This document shows positions 5,329-38,368 of a stretch of DNA of 38,464 bases, in pieces; position 1 is the stretch's first letter, and every line of letters begins with the position of its first letter. Below the pieces are notes generated by a model, which saw nothing but the letters and a program-made list of their open reading frames with translations, did not search any database and was not told where the DNA came from. Origin of the DNA: Armatimonadota bacterium (GTDB taxonomy: Bacteria > Armatimonadota > Zipacnadia > Zipacnadales > VGFC01); NCBI GenBank assembly GCA_016869045.1, contig VGFC01000016.1, positions 1-38,464 of the forward strand. Direction: 5' to 3'. Made by a program: the position numbers and the translations under genes.

Positions 5329-7194
5329 GTGGCCACACCTGGGGGCCGCGCGGAGGAGGCGTCCTATGCGCTGGCCCAGACGCAGCTAGCACGCAGGCGG
5401 CCGAGAGGCAGGCGGCTACGTCGGTCGCTGGCGACTTGGCTGTTTGGGAGCGTTGCGGGGCTTGTCTTTGTGGCCGCCTTCCGGGTTGGCTACTTCGGGA
5501 GCCTCACCGTTGCATGGCTCGATGGCCTCGTGGTGGGCACCGAGCCCACCCCAGTCAGGGTCCCCGTCAGCTTGGTCGTCGCCGGCGATGACGACTTCCG
5601 CAGTCTTGGCGAGTGGCCGCCCCCCAGCCTCTTCCCCAGAGACGTTCTGAGCGACACCATCAGGGCAGCAGTCGACGCGGGAGCAGCTGCCGTCTGCATC
5701 GACCTGCTGCTCGACGTTCCCTCCGCTCAGGACGACGCTCTCGAATCATCGCTGCGTACGGTCGCTGAGCGAGGCACTCCCGTCTTCCTGGTGTGCAGTG
5801 CGTGGTCAGCGGAGCCATCCCGGCCCCTTGAACGGTTCGCGCAGGTGGCTCGGGTGGCGTGCGCCGACGTCCTCGCGGGTCCCCAAGGCGAGGCTCGGGC
5901 GGTTCCGCCGACCGTGACGACACCGTGGGGTCGCAAACCCTCTCTCGCCTTTGCGGTGGCGGAGTCGTTGGCGGCTCAGGCGGGCCATGGCGGACGCCTC
6001 CCGGACCGGTCCGTTCCGATCGACTGCGCACAGGTGGAGCGGAGCGTAGGGCGCTACCCACTCTTGGCCGTGAACCGCCACGCAATCCCTCGCAACTGGC
6101 TGGCCGGCTCAATCGTCGTGATTGGACGAACCGACAGCCTGGGGGGCGATGTGCTGCTCATCGCTGACCCACGGGGCCTCGCCGAAGGCGGGACCCTGGT
6201 GCGCTCCGTCCCGGGTGTCGACGTGCAGGCTGCTGCGCTGTGCGCGCTGCTGGCCTCGCGCCGGCGAGCACAGGCAGGTCCGCTCGTGGACGCTGCCTTG
6301 GTGCTCTGCGCAGCCGGGATACTGACCTGGCTCCTGACACGCCTGGGCAATGTTGTGGGGACAGCCGTCGGCTTCGGGGTCATCCTGGTCGGTGGCGGGG
6401 CAGTCAGTCTCGGCCTGTTCGGCACGACGGGACACATACTGGGGCTTGCGCCGGTACTGCTCGGCAGCGCGACGCACGCCATGGCCATCGGTTGGCTGGA
6501 CCGGTGGCGGCTGTCGCGGACGCTGGGCCAACTCGTCAGCCCTGATCTGGCGGCCCGGATCGAGCGTTCCCTGGAGGTCGTGCCAGGTGAAGGACAGGTG
6601 TCGCCCGTGGCCGCGCTGACGTTCGACATTCGCGGCTCCACCGAACTCGCCTCCAGGGCTCGGCCGGAGCATGTCGGAAGCCTCCTCGCGGATCTGTTGG
6701 GTGTCGTCGCAGCCGAGGTTGTGGATGCCGGCGGGATGGTGAGCAAGTTCCTTGGTGATGGTCTACTGGCGCTGTTCGTGTCCGAGGGGAAGCATCACGA
6801 TGCCGGGCAGCGCGCTCTCCGGGCAGTGGAAGGCATCGACAGGGCAGTTGCCGGCGGGCCTGCGGCGGCGTGGTCTGAGGCCACTGGCGCGCGATTGGAC
6901 TACGTCGTCTCCGCCACCTACGGCTCAGCGTGGATCGGGTTCGTGGGCTTCCACCGACGTGCGGAGTTCACGGCCCTGGGTCAGACGATCAACCTGGCCT
7001 TCGAGTTGCAGGAGGCCGCCAAGCGAGACGGCTTCAGGATCCTGGTCAGTGCCGATCTTGCCGGCGAGGTTGGTGCCGAAACCGTCGCCCGCTACGCGGC
7101 GGTCACGGTGGAGCGCCCAAGAGGCGAAGGCACGTGGCCATGCCTCACGCTGTCCTGTACTGACTGGAGCGAGGAACCCCATGGAGCCCCGTGA
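5329..7194 (+). CDS. CHASE2-domain membrane protein with class III cyclase-like domain
   Basis: A 621-residue protein starting at GTG 5329, eight bases after GAAGGGG. After a basic N-terminus there is a membrane segment (about 37-57), an extracytoplasmic CHASE2-like sensor (about 65-310), several membrane segments (about 315-390) and a C-terminal class III nucleotide cyclase fold (about 425-590). Both metal aspartates are present (D433 in TFDIRGST, D477 in KFLGDG) and the purine lysine K473 is kept. The second purine residue, normally Asp, is Gln (Q552 in ALGQTINLA). The transition-state Asn is kept (N555) but the transition-state Arg is Glu (E559). By family knowledge, loss of that Arg predicts weak or absent cyclase activity; it may act as a nucleotide-binding relay. 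It overlaps the next gene by 14 bases and heads an operon with FecR-like and TPR-CHAT proteins. Confidence 0.88.
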   Translation: MATPGGRAEEASYALAQTQLARRRPRGRRLRRSLATWLFGSVAGLVFVAAFRVGYFGSLTVAWLDGLVVGTEPTPVRVPVSLVVAGDDDFRSLGEWPPPSLFPRDVLSDTIRAAVDAGAAAVCIDLLLDVPSAQDDALESSLRTVAERGTPVFLVCSAWSAEPSRPLERFAQVARVACADVLAGPQGEARAVPPTVTTPWGRKPSLAFAVAESLAAQAGHGGRLPDRSVPIDCAQVERSVGRYPLLAVNRHAIPRNWLAGSIVVIGRTDSLGGDVLLIADPRGLAEGGTLVRSVPGVDVQAAALCALLASRRRAQAGPLVDAALVLCAAGILTWLLTRLGNVVGTAVGFGVILVGGGAVSLGLFGTTGHILGLAPVLLGSATHAMAIGWLDRWRLSRTLGQLVSPDLAARIERSLEVVPGEGQVSPVAALTFDIRGSTELASRARPEHVGSLLADLLGVVAAEVVDAGGMVSKFLGDGLLALFVSEGKHHDAGQRALRAVEGIDRAVAGGPAAAWSEATGARLDYVVSATYGSAWIGFVGFHRRAEFTALGQTINLAFELQEAAKRDGFRILVSADLAGEVGAETVARYAAVTVERPRGEGTWPCLTLSCTDWSEEPHGAP

Positions 7195-8089: not shown

Positions 8090-8137
8090 GCAGGCCGCTT
8101 GGGTCCTGCAGCGTTGCTGCGCAGGGAGGTGTGCACG

Positions 8138-11011
8138 ATGGTGTTGTGGCTGACCCGACTTGCCGCCTTTGCGGTGACTGCAGGACTCGCAACGGGGGGC
8201 GGCACACCGGGCGTCTGCGCAGATGAGACGCCCCTGGAGCAGGCGCTGGACCGGGCTCAGGCCGCCGGCAGAGGAGGGGAGGGCCCCGGCGCCTGGGAGG
8301 CCGTGGCCAAGCTCGCCGAGGAGCTGGGAGAACTCGACAAGGCCGTCGCCTACTGGAACGAGGCGGCATGGGCCTGCGAGAACACGGGGCAGCTCGGCCG
8401 GGCGATAGCGTGTTTGGACCACGAACGAGGCATCCACCAAAGCCGAGGCAATGCTGAGCAGCAGGCGAAGTGCTTGATGCAGATCGCCTTCATCTACGAC
8501 AAGGCTGGCCAGTTCCTGGAGGGCCTGGAGGCGCGGAAGCGCTCGGTGCCCCTGTGGCGCGAATCGGAGAGTGAGGTCGGACTCGCGTGGGCCGAAGCCG
8601 GGATCGCCCTGCAGGACCACCGCGAGGGACGCTACGATGTTGCGGTGCCGGCCTATGAGCGCGCCATCGCCGTATTCGCCAAGAAGGGAGCCACGAGTCT
8701 GCAGGGCACGTTCATGAACAACCTCGGCGAGGCCCTGAGGGAGACCGATCGCCTGGATGAGGCGGCCGAGTGCTTCAGGGCCTACGTAGACCTCGTAAAG
8801 GACATCGACCGGGGCTTCCAGGTCGCCCAGGGACTCACGAACCTGGGCAACGTCTACTTCGAGAAGGCCGACTATGACCGAGCTCTCGACTACCATCTCA
8901 AGGCCCTGTCCCATGCCGCAAACATCGAGATCCGCAGTCACACGATGGAGAACATCGCGAGTCTCTACCAGCTCATGGGCGACTACCCGAACGCCAGGCT
9001 CTACTACGGAGCCGCCCTCTCCCTGGCGCGCGACTTCGGGAGTCGCGAAGAGGAGCTCAGGGCCCTGTCGGGCCTGGGAACCGTGCTCCTCGAGACCGGG
9101 CTTTGTCCGGAGGCGGTCGAGCGCTTCGAGGAAGGCCTGCGCCTGTCAACGGAGCTGGCACTCCGGACACGCATGGCCGACTTCCGAGAGCGTCTGGGTG
9201 AAGCCTGTCGCGTCGTGGGTCACTACCCCGAAGCCAGACTGGACCTGGAGCGCGCCCTCGCGCTCTACCGGGAGGAAGGCCGCCGTCGCGAAGCGGCGAC
9301 CGTGCTCCTCGGCCTCGCACGAGTTGGCCAGCAAGCCGGAGAGTACAGCGCGGCGCTGCAGTCCGTGGCCCAAGCCCGGGAGGGCATGGGCGACGATCCG
9401 CTGCTGAGCATGAAGGCGGGGATCACCGAGGGAGACTCCCTCACATGCCTCTCGCGGCTGGACGATGCCGCCGAGGCGTACCGTTCAGCCATGGTGGCGG
9501 CCGAGCGGGTCCGTGAGGGCTCCGCTGATCCCTATGTCGCCGCTCAGATTGGCGCTTCGGGCAGTGTGGCGTACGCGCGGCTCGTCGGCTTGGAGGCCCA
9601 ACGGGGGAGGCCGGAGGAGGCCTTCGCGTGCGCCGAGCGGGGTCGTGGTCAGGCACTCCTGCACGTCTTGGCCGCCGGCGGGATGCGCTTGACCCGTGGC
9701 ATGACGGAGGACGAAGTGCGGGAGGAACAGCAGCTTCTCGGGCGCGTCGGTCTGCTCACTCGGCAGTTGGCCCGGACGGACGAGCAGACGGACACGGACC
9801 GGCTGCACCGGGAGCGTGAAGAGGCGCGCCGGCTTCTGCGGGAGTTTCAGACGGCGCTGTTGGCTCGGCATCCGGAACTGGCCGTCCGGCGTGCGGAAGT
9901 GTCTCCCCTCACGGTCGAGGAGGCGCGCTCGTTCCTGCCCGATCACACGGCAATCGTGGAGTTCGTGGTTGACGAGGACCGAACAACGGTCCTCGTGGTC
10001 CCAGACCGCTCGGGCCGCCAACCTGTGGCCTTCGTGCTGGACGTCGGTCACGCCGCCCTGGCAGAGAAGACCCGCCTCCTGACGGCGCAACTGAACCAGA
10101 TGCGTCGGCGGCCGGATGGGCGGACCGACGGGTACCGCCAGACGGCGGAGACGTTCCACCTGCAGCTCCTGGGTCCGTGCGAGAGGCAGCTGTCTGGCGT
10201 CCGCCGTCTCATCGTCGTCCCCGACGGGCCCCTGCACGACTTGCCGTTCCAGGCGCTCGTAGCCAACGGCCGCTACCTGATCGAGACGTGCGAGGTGGTC
10301 TACGCTCCCAGTGCCACGCTACTGCGTCGTCTCCGAGGCGAGTCCTTCGGAGCGAGAGATCGGGCTCCGGCAACCGGCACGCTGGTCTGCGCCGACCCGG
10401 ATTTCGGCGGGCGGTACTGGCGTCCGGCAACCACTCGGGCCACGCTGGGCTCCCTGCCGTTTGCCCGGGACGAAGGCGAGGCCATCAAGACCGTGTACGG
10501 CGACGACGCCGTGCTCCTGGTTGGGGCGGGAGCCACGGAGGAACAGGTCAAGCAGGCCGCACCGGGGCGGCGGATCCTGCACTTCGCGACCCACGGTCTC
10601 ATCGACGCAGTGAACCCGCTCTACAGCGCGCTAGTGCTCGCCCAGCCGCCCGAGGGGTCTTGCGAGGATGGCTTCCTGGAAGCCCGGGAGATCGCCGGCC
10701 TGGAGTGGAACGCCGACATGGCCGTCCTGTCGGCCTGCGAGAGCGCGAACGGGCGAACCATGGGCGGCGAAGGCGTCATGGGGCTGACGTGGGCGCTTCT
10801 GTGCGCAGGGGTACCGACTACGGTTGCGACGCAGTGGCGGGTCGATGATCGGTCAACCTCGTTGCTCATGCGCGAGTTCTACCACCAGCTCGCCAAGGGC
10901 AAGCCCAAGGCCGCAGCGTTGCGTGCCGCACAACTCAGCCTGCTGAGAGACCGGCAGTATGCCGAGCCCTACTACTGGGCGCCCTTTGTCCTGATCGGAC
11001 GCTGGGATTGA
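8138..11011 (+). CDS. Secreted TPR-CHAT protein (caspase-like peptidase)
   Basis: A 957-residue protein. ATG 8138 follows GGGAGGT and starts a signal peptide ([13 protein letters not shown], cleavage near VCA). The frame is open 13 codons earlier, but without a ribosome site and with a worse signal. Residues of about 35-440 are tetratricopeptide repeats (for example [19 protein letters not shown] and [18 protein letters not shown]). A helical region follows to about 610. The CHAT domain covers about 630-957. The caspase-type dyad is intact: H819 in HFATHG and C867 in LSACESANG. The C-terminus shows [14 protein letters not shown] and the [10 protein letters not shown] end typical of CHAT proteins. 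Family knowledge says CHAT domains are cysteine peptidases related to separase and caspases; the substrate is unknown. It is the third gene after the CHASE2 and FecR-like genes, 48 bases downstream. Confidence 0.93.
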
Positions 11012-18579: not shown

Positions 18580-20748
18580 TTACGACTTGGGTTTGCTGTG
18601 GCGGGCGATCTCAACGCGCAGGCGAGTGGCCCATTTGCCGTATTCGCTGTTCGGGTCGGCCTCCTGGACCTTGGCCAGTTGCTCGTCCGCCTTCTTCACA
18701 TCGCCGGCGTACAGGCACATCTGCGCGAAGGCGACCAATCGCGCCGAATCGGTGGGGTGCGGCCGGTGGATTCTGTCGAACTCCTCGGCCCGGCGGCGGA
18801 TGATGTCGGCGATGTAGCCATGGGGCATGGGTCGGCAGACGACAAAGAAGAACCAGATGTACACCAGGCCCATGAAGCCCCAGAAGTAGGGCATTCCGCG
18901 GGACCTGACGGCTCGGGCGATCGTGCGGCGCTCCTCCCGCACGAGGCGGGTCTCGGTCTGGCTCAGGACGCTGACCTCGGCCGGGCTCAACTGACGCACG
19001 ACCGTCGGTCGGTTCGCCTCGGCCTCCGCCTGGGCGGCTTGGCCGGCCTCGACCTTGCGCACGTCGCTCACTTCCTGCGTGTCGCCCGTTTCCTTGTCGG
19101 TGAACTTGAGTTCGCGCGTGACCTCCACGGTGCCATCGCGGACGGCGACCTGCCCCTCCTTGTCTCCTACGGCCACCTGGAAGGAGGTGCCGCGCACACC
19201 GAGGGTCAGGATGGGTGTCTCCACCGAGAACTCCGAGTCGCGGGTCGCCAGGCGGCGGACGCGGGCGAAGAAGGCCCCGGCGCGGGCGTTGAGGCGCGTG
19301 AGGGTGGCGCCGCTGAGGCGTTTGGTCAGATCCGTGACCGCTAGCTCGCTGCCCCCTGTGAGCCGGACCTCGGACCCGTCGTGGAAGCGAAGAAGCGCTT
19401 CGCCCGTGGCGCCGGTGGTCACGAGATCGTTGGTGCGCAGAATGGTGCCTTCGGGCGCCGGCACGGCCTGCAGAGCGCCGGGATGTGTGACGAGGACTTC
19501 CCCAGAAACACGGGCGAGCACTGCGCAGCCATCGGGCACCTTGCGCAGGATCGAAGCGCAGACCAGGACGTAGATCACGCTGGACACGATCAGCAGACCA
19601 ACGACCCCCAGCGCCTTCACGACCCAGTGTGTGCGGCGCCAGACGCCGACGAAGATCGGGAGCCGGAGATCGCCGGGGAGGGCCAGGAGGTTGCCCATGC
19701 GGGCCTGCTTGAGCATATGCCAGGTCATGCTCCGCCAACGGTCGCCCAGGATACCGACGGCCAGGTACGGGATTTCGGCGATGGGGCCGGCGACACGCAG
19801 GCCCACCTGGCTGGAGAGCCAGTCCGTGGTGGCGACGACCGCCGCGCCGACGGTGACGGTCCGCAGGTTGCCGATGCCGCCGGCGACGGAGCCGCCGCCG
19901 ATCAGTGCCGCAGCCAGTGGAGTGAGCAGCCAGAGAAGCTGCCCACCCAGGCCGATCGCAGGGAGCCCCGAGCAGGCGATGAGCAGGCCGGCGGTTCCGG
20001 CCATGAAGCCGCTGGCGAGGAAGCTGGCCAGGATTCGGGAGGCTGTGGCCCGGCCCTCGGCCTCGGCGCGATGAGGGGCCGTGCCGACCGCCAGGAAGGT
20101 GGGGCGGTTGAACAGCACCTTCGCCAGCAGGAGCGCCGCAAGGAAGAGGGTCAGCACTACCGGTATATGCAGGACGTCGGTCTCGCCGAGGGAGTTGAGG
20201 AAGGGGTTGCTCACCGCAAGGTCACTGTGCGAGGTGAAGTGAGTGGAGACCTGGAGCGCGACCGCGCCGGTGGCGATGGTGATCATGGCGGAGGGCAGGC
20301 GCGTCCAGCCCGTCACGAAGCCGTTCAGCAGACCCACGAAACAGCCGACGGTCAGCGCGGCCAGTACCGCCCAACCCGGCCCGATCATCGAGGCCATCAC
20401 GGCGCAGCAGGCCGCCAGGGCCGCCAGGGGTCCTGCCGAGAAGTCATACTGCCCCTTGAGCAAGGGGAAGGTCACGCCCAGGGTCACCAGGCCTACCAGC
20501 CCGAAGGTCAGCAGGAGTTGGCGCCAGCCGAGACCGGAGGGCTGAAGCGCCAGCGCGCCGAGCAGCAGGAGCAGCAGGAGGAGGAAGGGCGCGATCTGGC
20601 CGATGGAGGTCGCCCTCAGCCAGAGCACGGGGTTGTAGCCGAGGGCCTTGCGGATGGTCGCCGGCACCAGCGGCTGGCCGCACTCGTCGCAGAGGCGGGC
20701 GCCGATGGGGTTGTCGTGTCGGCAGCGCGGACAAGGGATGGTGTTCAT
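18580..20748 (-). CDS. Zinc ribbon - RbsC-like permease - FecR - TPR-like fusion protein
   Basis: A 722-residue membrane protein. ATG 20748 is 8 bases after AGGAGA, which lies in the end of the upstream cyclase gene; the two genes are 4 bases apart. Domains in order: a zinc ribbon (C6, C9, C20, C23); an ABC sugar-permease-like BPD_transp_2 domain (about 50-340) with LKGQYDFSAGPLAAL, VGLLNGFVTGW and GGGSVAGGIGNLRTV, as in RbsC; a membrane segment (about 375-397); a FecR domain (about 405-545) with ARVSGEVLV, LVTTGATGEALLRF, and ETPILTLGVRGTSFQVAV; another membrane segment (620-638); and a helical TPR-like tail (about 655-715). No ABC ATPase or sugar-binding protein is nearby, so transport is doubtful; the permease fold may be a sensor. 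Partnership with the adjacent CHASE2 cyclase is inferred. Confidence 0.85.
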   Translation of the reverse strand: MNTIPCPRCRHDNPIGARLCDECGQPLVPATIRKALGYNPVLWLRATSIGQIAPFLLLLLLLLGALALQPSGLGWRQLLLTFGLVGLVTLGVTFPLLKGQYDFSAGPLAALAACCAVMASMIGPGWAVLAALTVGCFVGLLNGFVTGWTRLPSAMITIATGAVALQVSTHFTSHSDLAVSNPFLNSLGETDVLHIPVVLTLFLAALLLAKVLFNRPTFLAVGTAPHRAEAEGRATASRILASFLASGFMAGTAGLLIACSGLPAIGLGGQLLWLLTPLAAALIGGGSVAGGIGNLRTVTVGAAVVATTDWLSSQVGLRVAGPIAEIPYLAVGILGDRWRSMTWHMLKQARMGNLLALPGDLRLPIFVGVWRRTHWVVKALGVVGLLIVSSVIYVLVCASILRKVPDGCAVLARVSGEVLVTHPGALQAVPAPEGTILRTNDLVTTGATGEALLRFHDGSEVRLTGGSELAVTDLTKRLSGATLTRLNARAGAFFARVRRLATRDSEFSVETPILTLGVRGTSFQVAVGDKEGQVAVRDGTVEVTRELKFTDKETGDTQEVSDVRKVEAGQAAQAEAEANRPTVVRQLSPAEVSVLSQTETRLVREERRTIARAVRSRGMPYFWGFMGLVYIWFFFVVCRPMPHGYIADIIRRRAEEFDRIHRPHPTDSARLVAFAQMCLYAGDVKKADEQLAKVQEADPNSEYGKWATRLRVEIARHSKPKS

Positions 20749-20752
20749 GCTC

Positions 20753-22729
20753 TCACTCTCCTGGAGCGGGCGCCGGAGGGGTGCTTGCGGCCGACCTCTT
20801 GCGGTCCGTCAGCTCGAAGACCTCGACCGGCTCCGGATGGCCGCGTACGTTCTGCTCGCCCAGCGGGCGGGACTCGATCTCCTCGGCGACGGCCTCGGCC
20901 ACCGAGCGTGTCACAAGGATGGTGGTGCCGAGTTCCTTGTTGAGGCCCTGCAGGCGGGAGGCCAGGTTGATGACCGATCCGAGCGCCGTGTATTGAGTGC
21001 GGATCTGGGAGCCGAGGTTCCCGACGACCGCTTCGCCCGAGCTAATCCCGATCCCGATGCGCAGCGGCGTGTCCAGGACCTTCTCCTCCTGCCAGCAGCG
21101 GTTCAGCGCGTCCAGCTCGTGGACCATGTTCACGGCCAGGTGGGCGGCGCGAACCATGTGATCCGGCTGGTCATCGAGAGCATTGAAGGTGATGAAGATC
21201 TCGTCGCCGACCAGATTGTCCACCGTGCCATCCAGGTCAAAGGCGAGTTCTGTCATGCGCCCGAAGTAGGTGTTGAGCACGGAGACGACGGCCCGGGGGT
21301 CGGCAGTGCCCATCCACGCTGTGAAGCCGCGGACATCGGCGAATAGCGCCGTGACGGTGCGCAAGACCCCCGCCGACCGGGCCTGAAGCTCCCCCGCCTC
21401 CAGACGCGCGACGAGCTGCGGGGGCGCATAGCGGCCGAACTCCGTACGCAGGCGGCGCCGCGTGCCCTCCTCCGTCGCCAACCGAATCGCCGCCGTCGGC
21501 AGGTAGGCGGCCAGCAGGGCCAGCCCCGGCCCGAGCATCGGCCACACCGTTCGGCTCTCGCTGAAGGCACGCATCGCCAGGGCGTTGTACACCACCAATG
21601 CGAGCAGCAGCGCCGCGAAGCCGACCACTGGGCGCGCCAGCCGCGCCATCAGCGCACCGAGAATCCCCAGCAGGATCGCCAGCCCGAAGACCGTGGCTCG
21701 GTTCACCTCGGTCAGGAAGCTGTTGTGCAGCATGTTCTCCAGAACCTGCGCGTGAATCTCCACGCCGAACATGCCGCCGGGGTACGGGACCACGAAGAAG
21801 TCCTGCAGGCCGGGAGCGGTCAGGCCGACTAGCACGATCTTGTCGGTGAACGTGCCCGGCGAGAAGCGCCCGTCAAGGACATCCCGGAACGAGTAGCGGG
21901 GAACCGTGCCGGTCGGGCCCAGGAAGTTGACGAGCGCGTTGCCCCAGTCGTCAAGCGGCGTCACTTGGCCCGGCGTCAGGACCGCCTGGCTCGCCAGGTC
22001 GAAGCGCATCGCCCCGGGGTCCCACTTCTGGGCGCGCGCAGCAGTGGCCAGCTCGAAGGTCGGGTAGAAGTGGCCGCTGGCCGCGCCTTGAATGAGGAAG
22101 CACGCCCGCCGCAGCGTACCGTCGGGGTCGGGCCGGCCAGCGATGACGCCGGTTCCGGCCGCCGCCTGCGCGAGGGGAGCGATGGGCTGCATTACCCCCG
22201 CCACGCGCGGGGCAAGCCCCTGATGGACGACGATCTGCGGCCTGATCTGGCCCTGCCGGACGAGGAGTTTCGTGGCGGCGCCAATCGGCTGGTCGGAGGG
22301 ATACGCCGCGTGGATGACGCAGCCAGCCTCGCGAGTGGCTGCCGCCAGCGCCACGTCGTCGTCGGGCCTGCCCCGCGAGGGCTCGGAGAAGATCACGTCA
22401 TAGGCGATGGCGCGCGGACGCTCCGACCTGAGGCGCCGAAGGAGCCGCGCGTGCCAGATCCGGTCCCACTCCCATCGGCCGAGTCGGGGGTCGCGGATGC
22501 TTGCCTCGTCGATGGCTATGATGACCACATCGCTCGGCGGGGGAGGCGTGGTGCGGAACCGGTAGCGGGCGTCGAGGGTGCGGAGTTCGAGCGCGTGTAG
22601 CGGCCAGCCGGGGAGGAACAGCGCGGTGCTCACGACGCCCAGAGCGATGCCCAGCGCGCTGCAGCGGAGAATGGGGCCAACAACCGTGTTTCTCGGCCTC
22701 CGCGAGGTGTCCTCGGACACGGGTACCAC
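20753..22729 (-). CDS. CHASE2-domain class III adenylate/guanylate cyclase
   Basis: A 658-residue membrane protein starting at GTG 22729 (no strong ribosome site visible). A membrane segment (about 22-42) precedes a CHASE2 sensor (about 45-325, with ELRTLDARYRFR and VLVGLTAPGLQDF); three membrane segments (about 345-412) connect to a class III cyclase domain (about 455-645). Metal aspartates are D465 (FADVRGFT) and D509 (NLVGDE); transition-state N588 and R592 are intact (INLASRL). The purine-selecting pair is unusual: the expected Lys is N505 and the expected Asp is S585. The enzyme is probably active, but ATP versus GTP preference cannot be read from the usual rule. It is the first gene of a two-gene operon with the permease-FecR fusion. 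Confidence 0.92.
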   Translation of the reverse strand: MVPVSEDTSRRPRNTVVGPILRCSALGIALGVVSTALFLPGWPLHALELRTLDARYRFRTTPPPPSDVVIIAIDEASIRDPRLGRWEWDRIWHARLLRRLRSERPRAIAYDVIFSEPSRGRPDDDVALAAATREAGCVIHAAYPSDQPIGAATKLLVRQGQIRPQIVVHQGLAPRVAGVMQPIAPLAQAAAGTGVIAGRPDPDGTLRRACFLIQGAASGHFYPTFELATAARAQKWDPGAMRFDLASQAVLTPGQVTPLDDWGNALVNFLGPTGTVPRYSFRDVLDGRFSPGTFTDKIVLVGLTAPGLQDFFVVPYPGGMFGVEIHAQVLENMLHNSFLTEVNRATVFGLAILLGILGALMARLARPVVGFAALLLALVVYNALAMRAFSESRTVWPMLGPGLALLAAYLPTAAIRLATEEGTRRRLRTEFGRYAPPQLVARLEAGELQARSAGVLRTVTALFADVRGFTAWMGTADPRAVVSVLNTYFGRMTELAFDLDGTVDNLVGDEIFITFNALDDQPDHMVRAAHLAVNMVHELDALNRCWQEEKVLDTPLRIGIGISSGEAVVGNLGSQIRTQYTALGSVINLASRLQGLNKELGTTILVTRSVAEAVAEEIESRPLGEQNVRGHPEPVEVFELTDRKRSAASTPPAPAPGE

Positions 22730-23553: not shown

Positions 23554-24756
23554 ATGGACGGTCAGCCGATGCCGGAGGCGCCGGAGGTCTGTTGCCTTCG
23601 CCTTGCCGATGTCGAGCCCGACCCCGACCAGCACAGGAAGCACTTCCCCGAGGAGTACCTTGCCGGGCTGGCGGAGTCGATCCGGGAGAATGGGCAGCTC
23701 GACCCCGTCAAGGTGATCCGCCAGGGCGACGGATACCAGCTCGTGGACGGGGAGTGCAGATACCGGGCGTGCCTGCGGGCAGGGCTGGAGACCATCCGGG
23801 CGGTCGTGCTCGACCTGGACGAAGGGCAACGGTTGGCCATCCAGGCGACGGCCAACCTCGCTCGCCAGGACGTGAGGCCCTGCGAGGAGGCGACGGCCTA
23901 TGCGAAGATCGTCGAGCACCTGCGGGCGGAGAAGCCCTGGCTGAGCGAGGAAGACGCACGGAAGCGGTGTGCGAAGGTGACGGGGCGGCCGTTGCAGCGG
24001 ATCGCGTTCAAGCTGAAGCTCCTCGCCCTGCCGGTAGAGGTCCAGGAACTGGTAGACAAGGGGGCGCTCGGGGAAGGGCAGGCGCTGGCCCTGGGGCGGC
24101 TGGCGGAGGGCGAGGCGGGACGGGCGGAGTGTGTTCGGCTCGCCCGGAAGGCAGTGGCTCAGGCGCTGTCGGTGGCGGATGTGAAGGCGAGGGTGGCGGC
24201 ATACGTGGGTGAGCAGGCGCAGTGCTCGCTGTTCGGGGCGGACGAGGGGAAGGCGTCGGTGGAGGCCAGGAAGACGAGGGACACCCTTGGCCGCGTCGTG
24301 GGCCACCTCGAACGCGTCGCCGACCTGACCTTCGACGAGAAGCAGCAGGCGCTCGCCCTCGGGGAACTGCGGGCGGATGAGTTGGCCGCGGCGCGTGCGA
24401 AGCTCGCCGGCGCGGCGAAGCACCTGGGGGCGCTGCTGGCGGAGGTCGATGCGGCGCGAGGGGAGGATGGGCCGGCCAGTGTCGCCGGCGGCTCAGCCGG
24501 CCCTGTGGCGCTCGCACCGGACCCTCTCGACGAGCTGCGAACGGAGGCAAGGGGCGCGTGGCTCTGGGTGCTCGGGGCGCCCGCGCCGAACGGTCACCCT
24601 CTCACTCGCGACCTCTACCTGGCGGGCGCAGTGTGGTCGTCGAGGCGCGGGGCGTGGTATGCGCCGGACGAAGTGCGGGCACAAAGGGTGGCGGCAGTGA
24701 TCGAGGACTATCGGCAGGCAGTCCTGCCGGAGATTCAGCGGGAGGCGTCGGCATGA
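23554..24756 (+). CDS. ParB/Srx-fold (KorB-like) DNA-binding protein
   Basis: A 400-residue protein with ATG 23554 after GAGGAGG. Residues of about 12-105 are a ParB N-terminal domain: LAESIRENGQLDPVKV, YQLVDGECRYRAC (66-73, the GExRxRA CTP-binding box) and ANLARQDVRPCEEA (100-113, related to the ENxxRxD/PxEEA box). A helical DNA-binding part (about 125-185) with ARKRCAKVTGRPLQRIAFKLK follows, as in KorB. About 340-395 is a small C-terminal domain with WLWVLGAPAP and WSSRRGAWYAPDE. Such proteins act in plasmid partition or as regulators using CTP. No ParA is present, so regulation or a lone role in element maintenance is more likely. It overlaps the next gene by 4 bases. Confidence 0.88.
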   Translation: MDGQPMPEAPEVCCLRLADVEPDPDQHRKHFPEEYLAGLAESIRENGQLDPVKVIRQGDGYQLVDGECRYRACLRAGLETIRAVVLDLDEGQRLAIQATANLARQDVRPCEEATAYAKIVEHLRAEKPWLSEEDARKRCAKVTGRPLQRIAFKLKLLALPVEVQELVDKGALGEGQALALGRLAEGEAGRAECVRLARKAVAQALSVADVKARVAAYVGEQAQCSLFGADEGKASVEARKTRDTLGRVVGHLERVADLTFDEKQQALALGELRADELAAARAKLAGAAKHLGALLAEVDAARGEDGPASVAGGSAGPVALAPDPLDELRTEARGAWLWVLGAPAPNGHPLTRDLYLAGAVWSSRRGAWYAPDEVRAQRVAAVIEDYRQAVLPEIQREASA

Positions 24757-24965
24757 AGAAGGCTACGGTCGGCAACCTGTTCGGTGGGCATGATGAGGTG
24801 AGCGTTCGGAAGGACGGGACCTGTCGCGTTCGGTCGTCGCACGCGGAAGGTCCGAAGCAGCTCAACCTGCTGACCGGACAGCCGGAGTTCGCGCACACGA
24901 AGCGCAATCCGTGGACTGACGAGCGCGAGGCCGAGGATACCCGCAGGGGCCTCGTCGCCAAGTGA
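24753..24965 (+). CDS. Small hypothetical protein
   Basis: A 70-residue protein. Its ATG 24753 overlaps the ParB-like stop (ATGA), with GGAGG 8 bases upstream, so translation is coupled. It is polar (KKATVGNLFGGHDEVSV, PKQLNLLTGQPEFAHTKRN) with no membrane segment, and no family that I recognise. It ends 15 bases before the DUF3560 gene. Confidence 0.7.
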   Translation: MKKATVGNLFGGHDEVSVRKDGTCRVRSSHAEGPKQLNLLTGQPEFAHTKRNPWTDEREAEDTRRGLVAK

Positions 24966-24980
24966 AAGGGGGAGAGTGAA

Positions 24981-25910
24981 GTGCTCGATGGACTGACGGT
25001 GACGCAGGGCATGACGACGCCCACCCGACCGGGCAAGCAGCCCCGCCCGGTGTGGGAGGTGTCCGGCCGGACGCAAGGGCTCGAAGCAGTGTTCCGGGAG
25101 CTGGGAGGCCGACCGTGGCGGGGCGCCTGGTCCTTCTTCGAAGACCCTACCGAGGCCCTGTCCGAGCTCACGGAGGCCGACCGGGTGACGTTCGCCGAGC
25201 AGCGCAAGGCGGAGCGCCAGCGGGCGGAGGACCGGGCCGACCGAATGGCCGGCTACGCGGCGAACGCGACGGCTCGCAGTGACGCAGCCTACGAGCGGGC
25301 GAGGCAGATTGGCGACCGCATCCCGTTCGGCCAGCCCATCCTGGTCGGGCACCACTCGGAGCGGGGCCACCGGGCGGACCTGCGCCGGATCGACCGGGCC
25401 ATGCGCACCAGTGTCGAGGAAGCCGCGAAGGCCGAGCACTACGAGCGGCGAGCGGAGCTGAACGACCGCAAGGCCGAGGGCGACGAGCGGCATACGATGG
25501 CCTTCTGCGTCCGGCGGGCGGAGGAAGCCGAGGCCCTGGCCCGCAAGGCGGAGCGGACGCTCGCCGGCGAGGACCTGTGGCCGGGTGAGACCCTCTGCGA
25601 GGCCGAGCGCATCCGGCAGGAGGGCTTCCTGGCCGACGCGCGGGAGCGGGCCGCCTACTGGCGAGGCCTCATCGAGGCCAAGGGTGGCGTGCAGTTCACC
25701 AAGGAGACCCTCAAGCCGGGCATGGAGGTGTTCATCCGCCGGGAGTGGTGGCGCGTCGAGCGCTGCGGTCCGAAGAACGTCCGGGTGGTCTCACTGAGGA
25801 CCGAGCACCTGACCGGCTACCAGCGGTGGGTGATGTCCTACCCCTACGCCGAAGTCCGGGAGGTCCGGGAAGCGCCGGGCTCGGCAGGCCAGGGCTGTCT
25901 GGACCTGTAG
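24981..25910 (+). CDS. DUF3560 domain-containing protein
   Basis: A 309-residue protein from GTG 24981, preceded by AAGGGGGAG. The central part (about 70-170) has the DUF3560 signature: ERADRMAGYAANATARSD-like helix, IPFGQPILVGHHSERGHR, then RRIDRAMRTSVEEAAKAEHY. Such proteins are typical of plasmids and integrative elements of Gram-positive and related bacteria, with unknown biochemical function. The C-terminal 75 residues (PGMEVFIRREWWRVERCGPK, MSYPYAEVREV) form a small beta domain. It is predicted to be a coiled, highly charged cytoplasmic protein. It is part of the element's operon. Confidence 0.85.
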   Translation: MLDGLTVTQGMTTPTRPGKQPRPVWEVSGRTQGLEAVFRELGGRPWRGAWSFFEDPTEALSELTEADRVTFAEQRKAERQRAEDRADRMAGYAANATARSDAAYERARQIGDRIPFGQPILVGHHSERGHRADLRRIDRAMRTSVEEAAKAEHYERRAELNDRKAEGDERHTMAFCVRRAEEAEALARKAERTLAGEDLWPGETLCEAERIRQEGFLADARERAAYWRGLIEAKGGVQFTKETLKPGMEVFIRREWWRVERCGPKNVRVVSLRTEHLTGYQRWVMSYPYAEVREVREAPGSAGQGCLDL

Positions 25911-25976
25911 CGGGACCGGCTCGACCGGCCCGCGCGGGTGGAGTCGAACCTCGACGGAGACAGGGAGGCGAACGCC

Positions 25977-26096
25977 ATGCTGAAGCTGGGGTGTTGCATC
26001 CTGTTGGTGTTTGGGCTCTTACTGTTCGGGCCACTTCTCTTCTGCATCCTGCTGGCCGCCCTTGACCACAACACCGGAAGGAGGCGGTGGCGGTGA
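25977..26096 (+). CDS. 39-residue membrane peptide
   Basis: ATG 25977 follows GGGAGG with suitable spacing and encodes 39 residues. A single long hydrophobic stretch (CCILLVFGLLLFGPLLFCIL) is followed by AALDHNTGRRRWR, so it should span the membrane once with a basic tail inside. Its TGA (26094-26096) overlaps the recombinase GTG start by the sequence GTGA. The ribosome site and the 4-base overlap argue that it is translated. I know no homologue. Confidence 0.6.
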   Translation: MLKLGCCILLVFGLLLFGPLLFCILLAALDHNTGRRRWR

Positions 26097-27043
26097 CCGA
26101 CCTGGCCAAGATGACCTATCCCGTGCCGCCCGACCGCAACCCGCTGGCCGTCTACCTGGCCGGGCTGAAGCCGACCGGCCGGCGGTCGATGCTGAGCAAG
26201 CTGAACCGAGTGGCAGGGCTGCTCGGGCACACCAACGCGCTCAGCGTGCCGTGGGCGGAGCTGCGCTTCCAGCACGTCGCCGCCGTGCGGTCGAAGCTGC
26301 AGGAGGAGAACCTGGCCGCCGCCACCGTGAACGCTACCCTCGCCGGGCTGAAGGGTGTGGCGCGGGCCGCGTTCAACCTCGGCCTGATGTCGGGCGAGGA
26401 TCTGGAGCGCATCCGCTCCGTCCGGCCAGTACGCGGCGAGAAGCTCCTGGCCGGGCGCGCGCTCACGAGGGACGAGGTCTCCGCCCTGCTGCGCGCGTGT
26501 GTCCGGCGGGACGGCGCGGGCGGGGCGCGGGATGCCGCGCTGATCGCGCTAATGTCCGCCGGCGGCTTGCGTCGAGCGGAGGTCGTGGCCCTGGATCGCG
26601 CCGACTATGACGCCGAGAAGGGCGAGCTGGTCGTGCGCGGCAAGGGCGACAAGGAGCGGATGCTGTACGTGACCGGCGGGGCGGCGAGGGCGCTGACCGA
26701 CTGGCTGGAACGCCGGGGGGACGAGGAGGGGGCGCTGTTCCAGCCGGTGAGCAAGGGCGGGCGTGTCCTGCGCCGCCGGATGACCGACCAGGCCGTCTAC
26801 AACGCCCTGGTCAAGCGGGCGCGGCAGGCCAAGGTCAGGCGCTTCAGCCCGCACGACCTGCGGCGGACGTTCGTCTCGAACCTGCTGGACGCCGGCGCGG
26901 ACGTGGTGACCGTGCAGCAACTCGCCGGCCACGCGAACGTGCAGACCACGGCGCGGTATGACCGGCGAGGCGAGGAGGCGAAGCGGCGGGCCGTGGAGCT
27001 GGTGGACACGCCCTACAGCCGGACAGGGGAGATCATCCTGTGA
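26093..27043 (+). CDS. Tyrosine recombinase (XerD-like integrase)
   Basis: A 316-residue recombinase. I choose GTG 26093 because the AAGGAGG at 26078-26084 is 8 bases away, and it overlaps the preceding stop; a GTG at 26087 would be too close. The N-terminal SAM-like core-binding domain spans about 15-105. All catalytic residues are visible: R160 (GGLRRAEV), K184 (GKGDKER), H254 and R257 (SPHDLRRTF), H280 (LAGHANVQTT) and nucleophile Y289 (ARYDRR). It should catalyse integration and excision of the element. It overlaps the HTH gene by 4 bases. It is shorter than phage lambda-type integrases and lacks an arm-binding domain, like XerC/XerD. Confidence 0.95.
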   Translation: MTDLAKMTYPVPPDRNPLAVYLAGLKPTGRRSMLSKLNRVAGLLGHTNALSVPWAELRFQHVAAVRSKLQEENLAAATVNATLAGLKGVARAAFNLGLMSGEDLERIRSVRPVRGEKLLAGRALTRDEVSALLRACVRRDGAGGARDAALIALMSAGGLRRAEVVALDRADYDAEKGELVVRGKGDKERMLYVTGGAARALTDWLERRGDEEGALFQPVSKGGRVLRRRMTDQAVYNALVKRARQAKVRRFSPHDLRRTFVSNLLDAGADVVTVQQLAGHANVQTTARYDRRGEEAKRRAVELVDTPYSRTGEIIL

Positions 27044-34570: not shown

Positions 34571-37500
34571 CTACTGGGGCTCTACGAGCAGTTCCAGGCC
34601 GCAGAGGAGGGGAGGGGCCTGGGTCGCGGGCGCAGGTGTGAGTGTGATCACGAGGTCGTCTGTGATGGGCACATCCGTGAAGTCCTTCACGACCACGCCG
34701 CGCGGCGTCCCGGCTGCGGCGGCGATCTCGAAGTCGGTCAGGACCTCCCTCCCTTGAACCGCAACCGAGAACACTCGCTCGCCGGGCCCGAGATCGTCCG
34801 GCTCGGCGAAGTACAGCCGCACGGTGTAGGCTTGTGGCGCGGGGAAGCGCCCTTCCATGGACGCTGGCCAGTCGAGCGCTGTCGTGAACGCGTTCCGTAC
34901 GTAGGCCTCGGCCGCGTCCGCAGGCTTGTCTGCAGGCTGCACGAACGGACGGATCGTGAGCGTGCCCGCGCCCTGCAGGCCGGAAGCCCCGACCCAGCTC
35001 ATCGAGCCCTGGAACAAGGCCGAATGCCTCCGGAACCACCGTGGTCCGTCACCCGACCAACGCACCGGGACGTCCGGCGAGGGCCCGCCGACGCTGGGGG
35101 CCTCGAGAAAGAGCGTGCCGTCCTCCGCCATCCGGTTGCCGGGCGCGCCCAGGTTCAACCCCAGCCGCACGACGGGCGTCGGCTGGGTGGGCGGTGGGTA
35201 ATCGTCGAACGACCACTGGTCAGCGCCGGGGTCGTGCACGAGCGCCAGGGAACTCTGGTTCTGGTACGAGCAGGTACACGTCCGCGTGTAGTCCGGCGCG
35301 TTCAGGACTCCATCGGCGGCAACCAGGTTCGACGTGCACCCGGACTTGAAGCCCCCGATGCTGCTCGTGCCCTGACCCGAAGCCAAGTCTACGAAGCTCG
35401 CCGCTGCCGAGCGGAAGGTCAGGAGGTTCTCACTCGCGATGGCGGTGTTGCAGCCGTAGAACCGGACCCACGTCCAGGGGATCTCCTCGCCGGTGAGGGG
35501 ATGCGTGCGCTTGACCTCTTCCCCGGTCAGCAGGCTGTAGACCTTCGCCGGCGTGGCCTTCTGCGTGCCATAGGCAACCTGTGTGATGATCCGGTCATGG
35601 TGCAGGATGGGCGGGCCGAGATACGTCTCCTTGCTCTGCCAGAGGACCATGCCATCCGCCCCGCGATATGCGACCATCCCGGAGGCGGCTTCATCGGATG
35701 GCCGATCGCCGGACTTGCTGCCCCCTTGCAGCAGGACGTCGTGCTCCTCGGAGTACCCCAACCATGTGCCGAAGACATCGGCCTCCGTGCCCCAGAGCAC
35801 CTTCCCGGTCCGGATGTCCAGCGCAAGCAGCCGCGGCTTCTCCGTCGGCTCCTCGCCCCGCCGCTTCAGCAGGTCCAGCTTCGCCTGCGTGAGCGTGTCG
35901 AGGCAGAAGACCTTGTCGCTCCCGGCCACAATCGCGTTGTGCCGAAACGCATAGGCCGCCTCGCGCGTCCACAGGGCGGCGCCGGAGTGGGCGTCCATTA
36001 CGACCAGGTACCGGCTCTCGGCCGCGAAGCGCGCGTTGGGCGTAACGTCCTCCCCGGCCAGCTTGACCGGCGCCGCCGTCGCGATCAGCAGGCCCTCGTA
36101 GGCGCCAACGTAGCCCCAGTTCAGCTCCTGGTCTTCTCCCTCGACCGTCAGCGTGAGGTCGTCAAGCGTCGCTCCCGTGGCCGGATCGAGCACGTGACAC
36201 AGCGGACCAGCGGTCACGTAGACGCGGTCCTCGGTCACCACGAAGTTGCTGCCGACCTCGTTCGCGCCGGGGATGTGCTGTTGGTTGTAGCTGCGATCGA
36301 AGGGGTCGGGGTTGTAGCTCTCGTTGTAGTAGGCGCCGAAGGTGTCAAGGTCCTCGAGCTTCCGCGTCCACAGCAGGCGGCCGGTGTACACGTCCCGCGC
36401 GCTGAGCACGCCGATGCCCTCGATGAACAGCCGCCCACCGATCACCTCCGGCGACGGCCCGTGCCCGTGTCGCGGGAGCACATCGAGGTTCGGCGGCCCG
36501 CCGAACCACAGCAGCCCGAGCGGAGCCTTCACGAGGCTGTCGCTGGACATCACGGTGTTCGCCGCGTTCCCGTACTGCTGCGTCCACGAGCCCGCGCCGG
36601 GGAGGGGACCCTCCCGCACGAGCAGCGTCCAGTCGCCGACCTGCCGAGCCACGGCGTTCGGCGGGTTCGTCGGGGCCTGGGCGCTGTCCCGCCGCACGCA
36701 GATGGTGCCACCGTAAGGTCGCAGGCACCGAATGGCTGCCCGGCGAGCGTCGCCCACTTCGGGCGGCTCCTCGTACGCAATCAGGCTCGCGAAGTACGGC
36801 GGCAAGCCCGCCGAAGCGACGTTGCCGGCCAACACGGCCACCCGTGACCCATACAGCCCCGCTGCGTCGAGCCGCCGTCGCACCGCCTCGACCTGCTCCG
36901 CATCCGCGCCGAGCGTGACCACGTGCAGGTTCGACTGGCGGGCCAGCTCCTCGGCCACCCGTCCGGTGCCCAGGCTCGGCACGAGCGCGTAGCCTTCAGT
37001 GATCCCGGTCTCCTTCAGAAGCGACGCAGCGGCCGTCGTCCATTGGTCGTTTGCAGGTTCCGGCGCAGTGGCTTCGGTGAGGAGTGGGGGAGACGCGCTG
37101 GCCGGGGCCTGCCCGAAGCAGTACAGGCGCCCCTCCTTCGTGACCAAGAAGAGCCGCCCACTGGCCGCGATCATGCTCCACGGCTCGCCCTCAACCTCGG
37201 CCTGCCACGCGAGGCGCGCCAGCACGGTGTCGATCACCGCAACCAGTCCCTCCTTCCCACTCGCGTAGAGCCGTGGCCCGGCCTTCAGGTGGACCCGCGT
37301 CAGGGGCAAGCCCGTCTCCAACCGCCAGAGCTCAGGGAACGTGTACTCGGTGACCTGGGTCTCCTGCCCTCGGTTGTCGGTCTTCGTGACGACCTTCTCA
37401 TCGGGTTTGCGCAGGGCCTGGGCCACCACCGACCCGTCCTTGCCCACGCCGTACATCGCCCCTTCATCCAGCACCGTCGCGCTGCAGGTCGTCAAAGCCT

Positions 37501-38368
37501 GCCCATCCGCCGCGCGGTAGATGGCGCCGCCATTCACGAACCACTCGTCGCGCGCGGCAACCGCGTAGTCACCCTCCTTGGTGTTCCCGTGGTAGTAGCG
37601 GAAGGCGCCGGTCGCACGATCGTACACTGCCGGCACCGATCTCCCGCCGGGCAGGAACAGCGCGTCGCCCAGCGCGGCGACGTACCCCTGCGGCGCGACG
37701 TTCGCGAAGGCCGGGCTGTTGTGCGGCTGCAAGAGGTACATCGTCCCGCTGCCGCTATTCTCCCAGACGACCTCGCCGGTCTCCGCGTCCAGGCCGTAGA
37801 TCAGCGTGCCCATGAACGGCCAGATGCCCGCCGCAAAGTACACGACCCCATCGACGACAACCGGCGCACCCCGCGCAGGCCAGGTGGAGATCATCCGGTC
37901 GTTGCCGAGCACCCGCCGGCCGACGGGGGCGCCCTCGAACCGGAAGCGCAGCGAACCATCCGCCGCGTTCAGGCAGTACAGGGAGCCGTCGTCGCTGGTG
38001 AAGAAGAGCTTCCCATTCGCCGCCGCAGGCGCGAAGCGCACCGGCCCATCGGCGTAGAAGCGCCATTTCTCGGCGCCCGTCGCGGCGTCATAGGCGGTCA
38101 CGCAGTCACGCACCATCGAGGGCACGAACAGCGTGTCGCCGACCGCGATGGGCTCGTAGGAGGCGTCGAATTGCAGCTTGTACTGGTTCCACGGCCAGGC
38201 GGCTTTGGGGGCCGGGAGCTGGCGGACCCAGTGGACTGCCATCTCCGCCGGCAGGACCTGGGGCGAAGCCGCCGTCCTCCCCGCGTCGTACCTCCACATC
38301 GGCCAGTCCGCGGCCCACGCCGAGGCCGCCAGAAGCCCGATCAGCGCCGCCGTGCTTCCTGCCTTCAT
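34571..38368 (-). CDS. Large secreted PQQ-type beta-propeller protein with methyltransferase-like and malectin-like domains
   Basis: A 1265-residue secreted protein starting at ATG 38368 with a signal peptide (ALIGLLAASAWA). PQQ-type propeller repeats fill about 25-430 and 590-1000, for example CVTAYDAATGAEKWRFY, IYGLDAETGEVVWE and LLALDIRTGKVLWG. Between them, about 440-590, is a Rossmann-like stretch resembling an SAM methyltransferase: VPSLGTGRVAEELARQ, VVTLGADAEQVEAVRRRL, VAVLAGNVASAGLP, then a CLRPYGGTICV strand. The C-terminus (about 1060-1265) is malectin-like: YTVRLYFAEP, ERVFSVAVQGREVLTDFEI, GVVVKDFTDVPI. Similar very large proteins occur in Planctomycetota and Armatimonadota without known function. 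The methyltransferase part may be degenerate; the loop GTG replaces the usual GxGxG. An extracellular binding or oxidoreductase role is inferred. Confidence 0.85.
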   Translation of the reverse strand: MKAGSTAALIGLLAASAWAADWPMWRYDAGRTAASPQVLPAEMAVHWVRQLPAPKAAWPWNQYKLQFDASYEPIAVGDTLFVPSMVRDCVTAYDAATGAEKWRFYADGPVRFAPAAANGKLFFTSDDGSLYCLNAADGSLRFRFEGAPVGRRVLGNDRMISTWPARGAPVVVDGVVYFAAGIWPFMGTLIYGLDAETGEVVWENSGSGTMYLLQPHNSPAFANVAPQGYVAALGDALFLPGGRSVPAVYDRATGAFRYYHGNTKEGDYAVAARDEWFVNGGAIYRAADGQALTTCSATVLDEGAMYGVGKDGSVVAQALRKPDEKVVTKTDNRGQETQVTEYTFPELWRLETGLPLTRVHLKAGPRLYASGKEGLVAVIDTVLARLAWQAEVEGEPWSMIAASGRLFLVTKEGRLYCFGQAPASASPPLLTEATAPEPANDQWTTAAASLLKETGITEGYALVPSLGTGRVAEELARQSNLHVVTLGADAEQVEAVRRRLDAAGLYGSRVAVLAGNVASAGLPPYFASLIAYEEPPEVGDARRAAIRCLRPYGGTICVRRDSAQAPTNPPNAVARQVGDWTLLVREGPLPGAGSWTQQYGNAANTVMSSDSLVKAPLGLLWFGGPPNLDVLPRHGHGPSPEVIGGRLFIEGIGVLSARDVYTGRLLWTRKLEDLDTFGAYYNESYNPDPFDRSYNQQHIPGANEVGSNFVVTEDRVYVTAGPLCHVLDPATGATLDDLTLTVEGEDQELNWGYVGAYEGLLIATAAPVKLAGEDVTPNARFAAESRYLVVMDAHSGAALWTREAAYAFRHNAIVAGSDKVFCLDTLTQAKLDLLKRRGEEPTEKPRLLALDIRTGKVLWGTEADVFGTWLGYSEEHDVLLQGGSKSGDRPSDEAASGMVAYRGADGMVLWQSKETYLGPPILHHDRIITQVAYGTQKATPAKVYSLLTGEEVKRTHPLTGEEIPWTWVRFYGCNTAIASENLLTFRSAAASFVDLASGQGTSSIGGFKSGCTSNLVAADGVLNAPDYTRTCTCSYQNQSSLALVHDPGADQWSFDDYPPPTQPTPVVRLGLNLGAPGNRMAEDGTLFLEAPSVGGPSPDVPVRWSGDGPRWFRRHSALFQGSMSWVGASGLQGAGTLTIRPFVQPADKPADAAEAYVRNAFTTALDWPASMEGRFPAPQAYTVRLYFAEPDDLGPGERVFSVAVQGREVLTDFEIAAAAGTPRGVVVKDFTDVPITDDLVITLTPAPATQAPPLLCGLELLVEPQ

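Follow-up and report, generated by a model that had tools for sequence, protein, structure and literature searches.

The gene at positions 18580–20748 of the window, the whole 38,464-nucleotide stretch of an Armatimonadota contig (VGFC01000016.1) that was analysed, encodes a protein in which a zinc ribbon, an RbsC-type permease, a FecR domain and a TPR-like tail are fused, and it lies beside the gene of a CHASE2 cyclase. We regard it as probable (about 0.6) that a sugar-permease fold has here been recruited to nucleotide signalling and that the fused protein does not transport but serves a CHASE2–FecR cyclase as a subunit, either receptor or scaffold. The observed base is the domain order, the conserved pairing of the two genes, the loss of the ATPase-coupling loop and the retention of the core-fold and cyclase metal residues; recruitment is the best reading because the loop is gone, the core is kept and the two genes stay paired in both classes.

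Domain organisation of the fused protein and its neighbour

The following features of the two genes are given with their positions in the window.

18580–20748, minus strand: fused protein (zinc ribbon, RbsC-type permease, TM helix, FecR, TM helix, TPR-like tail), 722 aa, ATG start
20665–20733, minus strand: zinc ribbon of the form CxxC...CxxC, aa 6–28
19732–20604, minus strand: BPD_transp_2/RbsC-type permease, about aa 49–339 (PF02653, AF2, Foldseek)
20041–20109, minus strand: degenerate coupling loop, aa 214–236, joining TM5 to TM6
19549–19626, minus strand: TM helix before FecR, aa 375–400 (homolog hydropathy, AF2 secondary structure)
19123–19425, minus strand: FecR domain, aa 442–542, predicted periplasmic (K/R-rich cytoplasmic flanks)
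18838–18894, minus strand: TM helix after FecR, aa 619–637 (homolog hydropathy, AF2 secondary structure)
18598–18753, minus strand: TPR-like C-terminal helices, aa 666–717, predicted cytoplasmic
20757–20762, minus strand: AGGAGA, resembling a ribosome-binding site for the fused gene and lying within the final codons of the cyclase
20753–22729, minus strand: CHASE2 cyclase of 658 aa, the next gene upstream of the fused one
21659–22636, minus strand: CHASE2 domain, aa 32–357 (Pfam)
20816–21358, minus strand: class III cyclase catalytic domain, aa 458–638

The fusion of zinc ribbon, RbsC-like permease, FecR and TPR-like modules proposed in the preliminary description was recovered as a single 722-aa open reading frame, and the same full-length architecture was present in seven other genomes. 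The plus-strand translation of the same interval has no meaning, as the gene is on the minus strand. The search against Pfam gave a significant match of BPD_transp_2 (PF02653) to aa 77–314, with an E-value of 2.4e-11 and 43.7 bits (cut-off 26.8), which bears out the permease features noted earlier, and a match of FecR (PF04773) to aa 442–542 with an E-value of 3e-14. The zinc ribbon was below the Pfam threshold (DZR, 1e-4), whereas its four cysteines C6, C9, C20 and C23 were invariant in the alignment of all eight intact fused proteins, as were the VRGT core of FecR and the permease-core residues. No TPR was matched by Pfam in the 722-aa protein, and in its homologs the TPR matches were sub-threshold (best TPR_19, 3.3e-5, 24.6 bits against 25). 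Among the NCBIfam models, the nearest were the sugar permeases AraH, GguB and allose permease for the permease part and LipL45/Lsa33 for FecR, all far below their cut-offs.

The cyclase next door was likewise confirmed, with E-values of 1.5e-59 for CHASE2 (PF05226) and 1.4e-19 for Guanylate_cyc (PF00211). The gap between the cyclase gene and the fused gene is 4 bp, and co-translation of the two proteins is implied by the overlap of the AGGAGA site with the 3' end of the cyclase gene.

Further genes were observed in the window. A second CHASE2 protein (5329–7194, plus strand) has a divergent cyclase-like domain that received no Pfam call, retains the metal aspartate and is 29% identical to the cyclase at 20753 over aa 355–621; close downstream of its gene lies that of a TPR–CHAT protein (8099–11011, plus strand; CHAT E-value 2.7e-76). 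A row of ParB-like, DUF3560 and phage-integrase genes (23554–27043, plus strand), lying just upstream of the cyclase gene, is likely a mobile or plasmid-derived element. A 1265-aa protein (34571–38368, minus strand) combines PQQ/BamB propeller repeats and malectin domains with a weak methyltransferase-like match (7e-4).

Recurrence in Armatimonadota

Intact copies of the fused gene were found in eight of the 291 Armatimonadota genomes, seven of them in Candidatus Zipacnadia and one (G110) in another class; all of these genomes are uncultivated MAGs. The full-length homologs in the relatives were 48% identical to the window protein in G008 and G014 and 33–36% identical in G028, G022, G004 and G025, and the permease part of the G110 copy was below Pfam detection. 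A CHASE2 cyclase adjoins every intact copy, upstream in seven and downstream in G110, and the pairing of permease–FecR fusion and CHASE2 cyclase is thus recurrent (8/8). The neighbours were identified by reading the loci, by a Pfam check of two of them and by CHASE2 matches at the same places. An assembly join of two genes, named earlier as a finding that would overturn the fusion, is ruled out by the eight full-length copies in independent genomes.

A scan of genome contigs with the single protein gave no match, and the alignment-based contig scan gave matches in Zipacnadia/Armatimonadota records only; beyond Armatimonadota the coverage consisted of pattern-based contig scans, so distant relatives may be missed. 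The patchy spread of the copies over three families in the order means that the gene has been lost or horizontally transferred. Candidatus Zipacnadia has been described from deep-sea and other hypoxic or anoxic environments (PMC10290634).

A ninth genome (G036, contig C92) carries only a remnant, the end of the permease joined to the TPR tail (L035:2033-2502). It was considered as a variant lacking FecR and was rejected as such, since it reads as a decayed gene in which an internal stretch is deleted and the frame is changed. Three f4-g4 copies (L033:7480-9894, minus strand; L034:1400-3850, minus strand; L031:2486-4948, plus strand) carry at the N-terminus an additional helix-turn-helix (HTH_17, sub-threshold) that is fused in frame ahead of the zinc ribbon, and these proteins could be membrane-tethered DNA binders. 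Beside the f4-g4 cyclase gene, a short FecR-like protein is encoded divergently (L033:12026-12730, plus strand; L034:5990-6718, plus strand), so that two FecR-like partners are possible at these loci.

Fold and membrane topology

The AF2 model of the permease half, built on a 22-row alignment, had a pLDDT of 87.7 and a pTM of 0.85. Its best Foldseek matches by probability were transmembrane domains of type II importers, namely BtuC, the 2nq2 metal-chelate importer, BhuU and PsaC, with probabilities of 0.94–0.99 and E-values all above 0.04. A sequence search of the PDB gave no permease match. For the whole protein, AF2 gave a poor model with a pLDDT of 59; the tail of this model resembled designed TPRs (Foldseek 1na3, probability 1.00, TMt 0.64, weak E-values).

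From the helix count and the K/R-rich flanks, we infer that FecR is outside, in the periplasm, and that the zinc ribbon and the TPR-like tail are inside. The same features are consistent with FecR and CHASE2 lying on the same, periplasmic side of the membrane.

Loss of the putative ATPase-coupling loop in the permease

The permease parts of the eight fused proteins were aligned with ordinary RbsC-type permeases, 14 distinct sequences taken from the same and related genomes. In all 22 sequences, eight columns were invariant: D102, G106, G139, T157, G284, G285, G293 and G301. The conserved cytoplasmic loop between TM5 and TM6, which by analogy with BtuC/FhuB-type importers presumably contacts the ATPase, reads GRxxYAxGxNxxAAxxxGI in the ordinary permeases; in every fused protein it is four residues shorter and the N and AA are gone. 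The coupling motif GxNxxAAxxxG was kept in none of the eight fused proteins and in all 14 ordinary permeases. The fused permeases look uncoupled from an ATPase by this analogy, since the putative ATPase-contacting loop is lost in all eight.

The preliminary description had reported no ABC ATPase near the gene, and indeed the motif scan revealed no ABC-ATPase signature in the 38-kb window. The motif was absent from seven of the eight loci of fused genes, this one included; the only occurrence, at the locus L055, has an MCE-like gene next to it. With the ABC ATPase motif as the marker, an operon containing an ATPase and a substrate-binding protein for the fused permease was found at none of the eight loci.

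These data bear on the view of the fused protein as a subunit of an ordinary sugar ABC importer, whose RbsA ATPase and binding protein would be encoded elsewhere, whose FecR and TPR parts would be accessory and whose cyclase would be an unrelated or regulatory neighbour. There are ten other PF02653 matches in the genome, so partner ATPases very probably exist, and both the PF02653 match over the cut-off and the intact membrane-core residues would suit such a subunit. However, the loss of the coupling loop from every fused protein and its retention in every ordinary permease argue against a transporter of this kind, as does the constant association of the fused gene with a cyclase gene and never with an ABC ATPase operon. 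We therefore consider an ordinary importer improbable.

Another view is that the permease fold is a mere membrane anchor or oligomerisation scaffold, which holds FecR and the TPR-like tail by the cyclase, and that the input comes through CHASE2 or FecR alone. RbsC-type permeases act as dimers. Elsewhere in the class, the sampled FecR proteins that partner CHASE2 cyclases carry one TM helix and no permease, which makes the permease dispensable for the general system and favours the anchor. On the other hand, the G-x-x-D at 99–102, G106, N142 and the GG at 284–285 are invariant or nearly so in both fused and ordinary permeases, and this conservation exceeds what a passive anchor needs. A role limited to anchoring is accordingly rather unlikely.

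The paired cyclase

The metal-binding aspartates D465 and D509 and the transition-state residues N588 and R592 are all present in the cyclase of the window, and both aspartates and the catalytic arginine are kept in all eight paired cyclases. Judging from these residues, catalysis by the paired cyclases is plausible. The purine-specifying pair is the non-canonical N505/Q579 in the clade of the window and K/D in the f4-g4 copies, and the transition-state asparagine is replaced by serine in the four f4-g4 cyclase copies. Because of the N/Q purine positions in the one clade and the change from Asn to Ser in the other, both the activity and the product are uncertain.

In the tree of 35 cyclases, the seven Zipacnadia cyclases paired with the permease fusion formed one clade (support 100/99), to which none of the class's other cyclases in the sample belonged. 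A single origin that also takes in the long-branch cyclase of G110 was neither demonstrated nor rejected (p-AU 0.108). The genome encodes three proteins with a cNMP-binding domain, all on other contigs, which could be readers of the cyclase signal.

Pairing of CHASE2 and FecR genes

Of the 150 CHASE2 matches listed in Zipacnadia, at least 91 had a FecR match, likewise from a list of 150, within 3 kb, in same-strand as well as divergent arrangements; the chance expectation is about 0.5% by our own estimate, which assumes about 3 FecR genes per 4-Mb genome. Partnership with FecR is general for the CHASE2 genes of this class. Similar associations have been published: Campylobacterota have clusters of a CHASE2 adenylate cyclase, a phosphodiesterase, FecR and a TPR protein (PMC9239204), and the BiofilmReg operon of Burkholderia encodes FecR with LysM and a CHASE2 kinase (PMC5192318). 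The architecture, which was unfamiliar to the preliminary description, is therefore familiar in one part, the FecR beside CHASE2, and new in the other; the only new element is the permease, with the zinc ribbon, added to the FecR partner.

In S. meliloti, CyaD1 without CHASE2 is constitutively active, and the FecR gene SMc02177 beside cyaD1 is a Clr/cAMP target that is unnecessary for signal perception (PMC5498481). As it is unnecessary for perception there, FecR partners may act downstream of cAMP. The fused protein could by this precedent be an output, that is, an envelope protein under cyclic-nucleotide control, co-transcribed with a cyclase that is otherwise regulated. Such a role is very improbable, as the 4-bp gap, the overlapping ribosome-binding site and the occurrence of both gene orders are more typical of subunits of one complex, and the location of the three cNMP-binding proteins away from this contig also speaks against it.

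Proposed mechanism

In the preferred reading, recruitment of the permease fold to nucleotide signalling, the fused protein would be the membrane partner subunit of the CHASE2 cyclase, and its RbsC-type (type II ABC importer) permease, devoid of the ATPase-coupling loop, would serve as a receptor or scaffold module. The first TM helix would place FecR in the periplasm, on the side of CHASE2, and the second would return the chain to the cytoplasm, where the TPR-like tail and the zinc ribbon may lie near the catalytic domain of the cyclase. The permease dimer would change when the cavity of the permease is occupied or when a periplasmic binding protein docks on it in the loaded state; FecR would relay this change to CHASE2, which would set the output of the class III cyclase, itself a dimer, and so alter cAMP or cGMP. 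The topology, the ligand, the nucleotide, the contact between FecR and CHASE2 and the direction in which the cyclase is regulated are put forward here as suppositions.

A more specific version is tentative: the type II importer permease may have become the ligand-binding receptor of the cyclase, with its cavity and its docking face for a binding protein kept and the ATPase dropped, and may signal through FecR to CHASE2 in a 2:2 membrane complex. The earlier idea of a permease taken over as a ligand sensor for nucleotide signalling thus gains from the recurrent gene pair and the loss of the coupling loop; the ligand-sensor role itself stays conjectural, and the dispensability of the FecR gene for perception in S. 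meliloti weighs against it (PMC5498481).

Comparison with known systems

To our knowledge, the input of CHASE2 is in general unknown, and no mechanism has so far been given for FecR partners. An identifiable transporter fold on such a partner provides a concrete and testable idea of the input: either a ligand resembling a sugar or a binding protein in its loaded state. If true, an ABC permease domain would have turned from transport to signalling through loss of its ATPase-coupling loop, and a class of transceptor would be built on the RbsC-type permease. In the literature search, no report of ABC permeases as receptors was found, also under the older term 8TMR-UT.

The fused protein shares with RbsC/AraH-type ABC permeases the family match (PF02653), the invariant core residues and the BtuC-like predicted fold, and differs from them in the missing coupling motif, the absence of an ATPase and a binding protein from the operon and the fusion to FecR and TPR. 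As in the FecR of the ferric citrate system FecIRA, a FecR domain is (by prediction) located in the periplasm on a membrane protein; unlike it, the fused protein has no anti-sigma N-terminus, and the zinc ribbon and permease stand instead. No FecI-like sigma factor was present among the Pfam-scanned neighbours in the window, and no TonB receptor was found near the fused gene.

In the CHASE2–FecR pairs of Burkholderia, Campylobacterota and S. meliloti, too, the gene for a CHASE2 sensor enzyme adjoins one for a protein with a FecR domain, and the Campylobacterota clusters include a TPR protein, as here. In the published pairs, however, FecR is separate and periplasmic or outer-membrane, whereas in the fused protein they share one chain, TPR included, with a permease of about ten TM helices and a zinc ribbon. 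Transceptors also couple a transporter fold to signalling machinery: CbrA is an SLC5–STAC histidine kinase (PMC13022988), and the 5TMR kinases carry the fold of an S-component (PMC11109136). These combine SLC5 or ECF S-component folds with histidine kinases, whereas the present protein has a type II ABC permease fold and would act, if at all, on a separate cyclase. The fused protein is thus placed among the CHASE2–FecR systems and the transceptors, and not as a new category.
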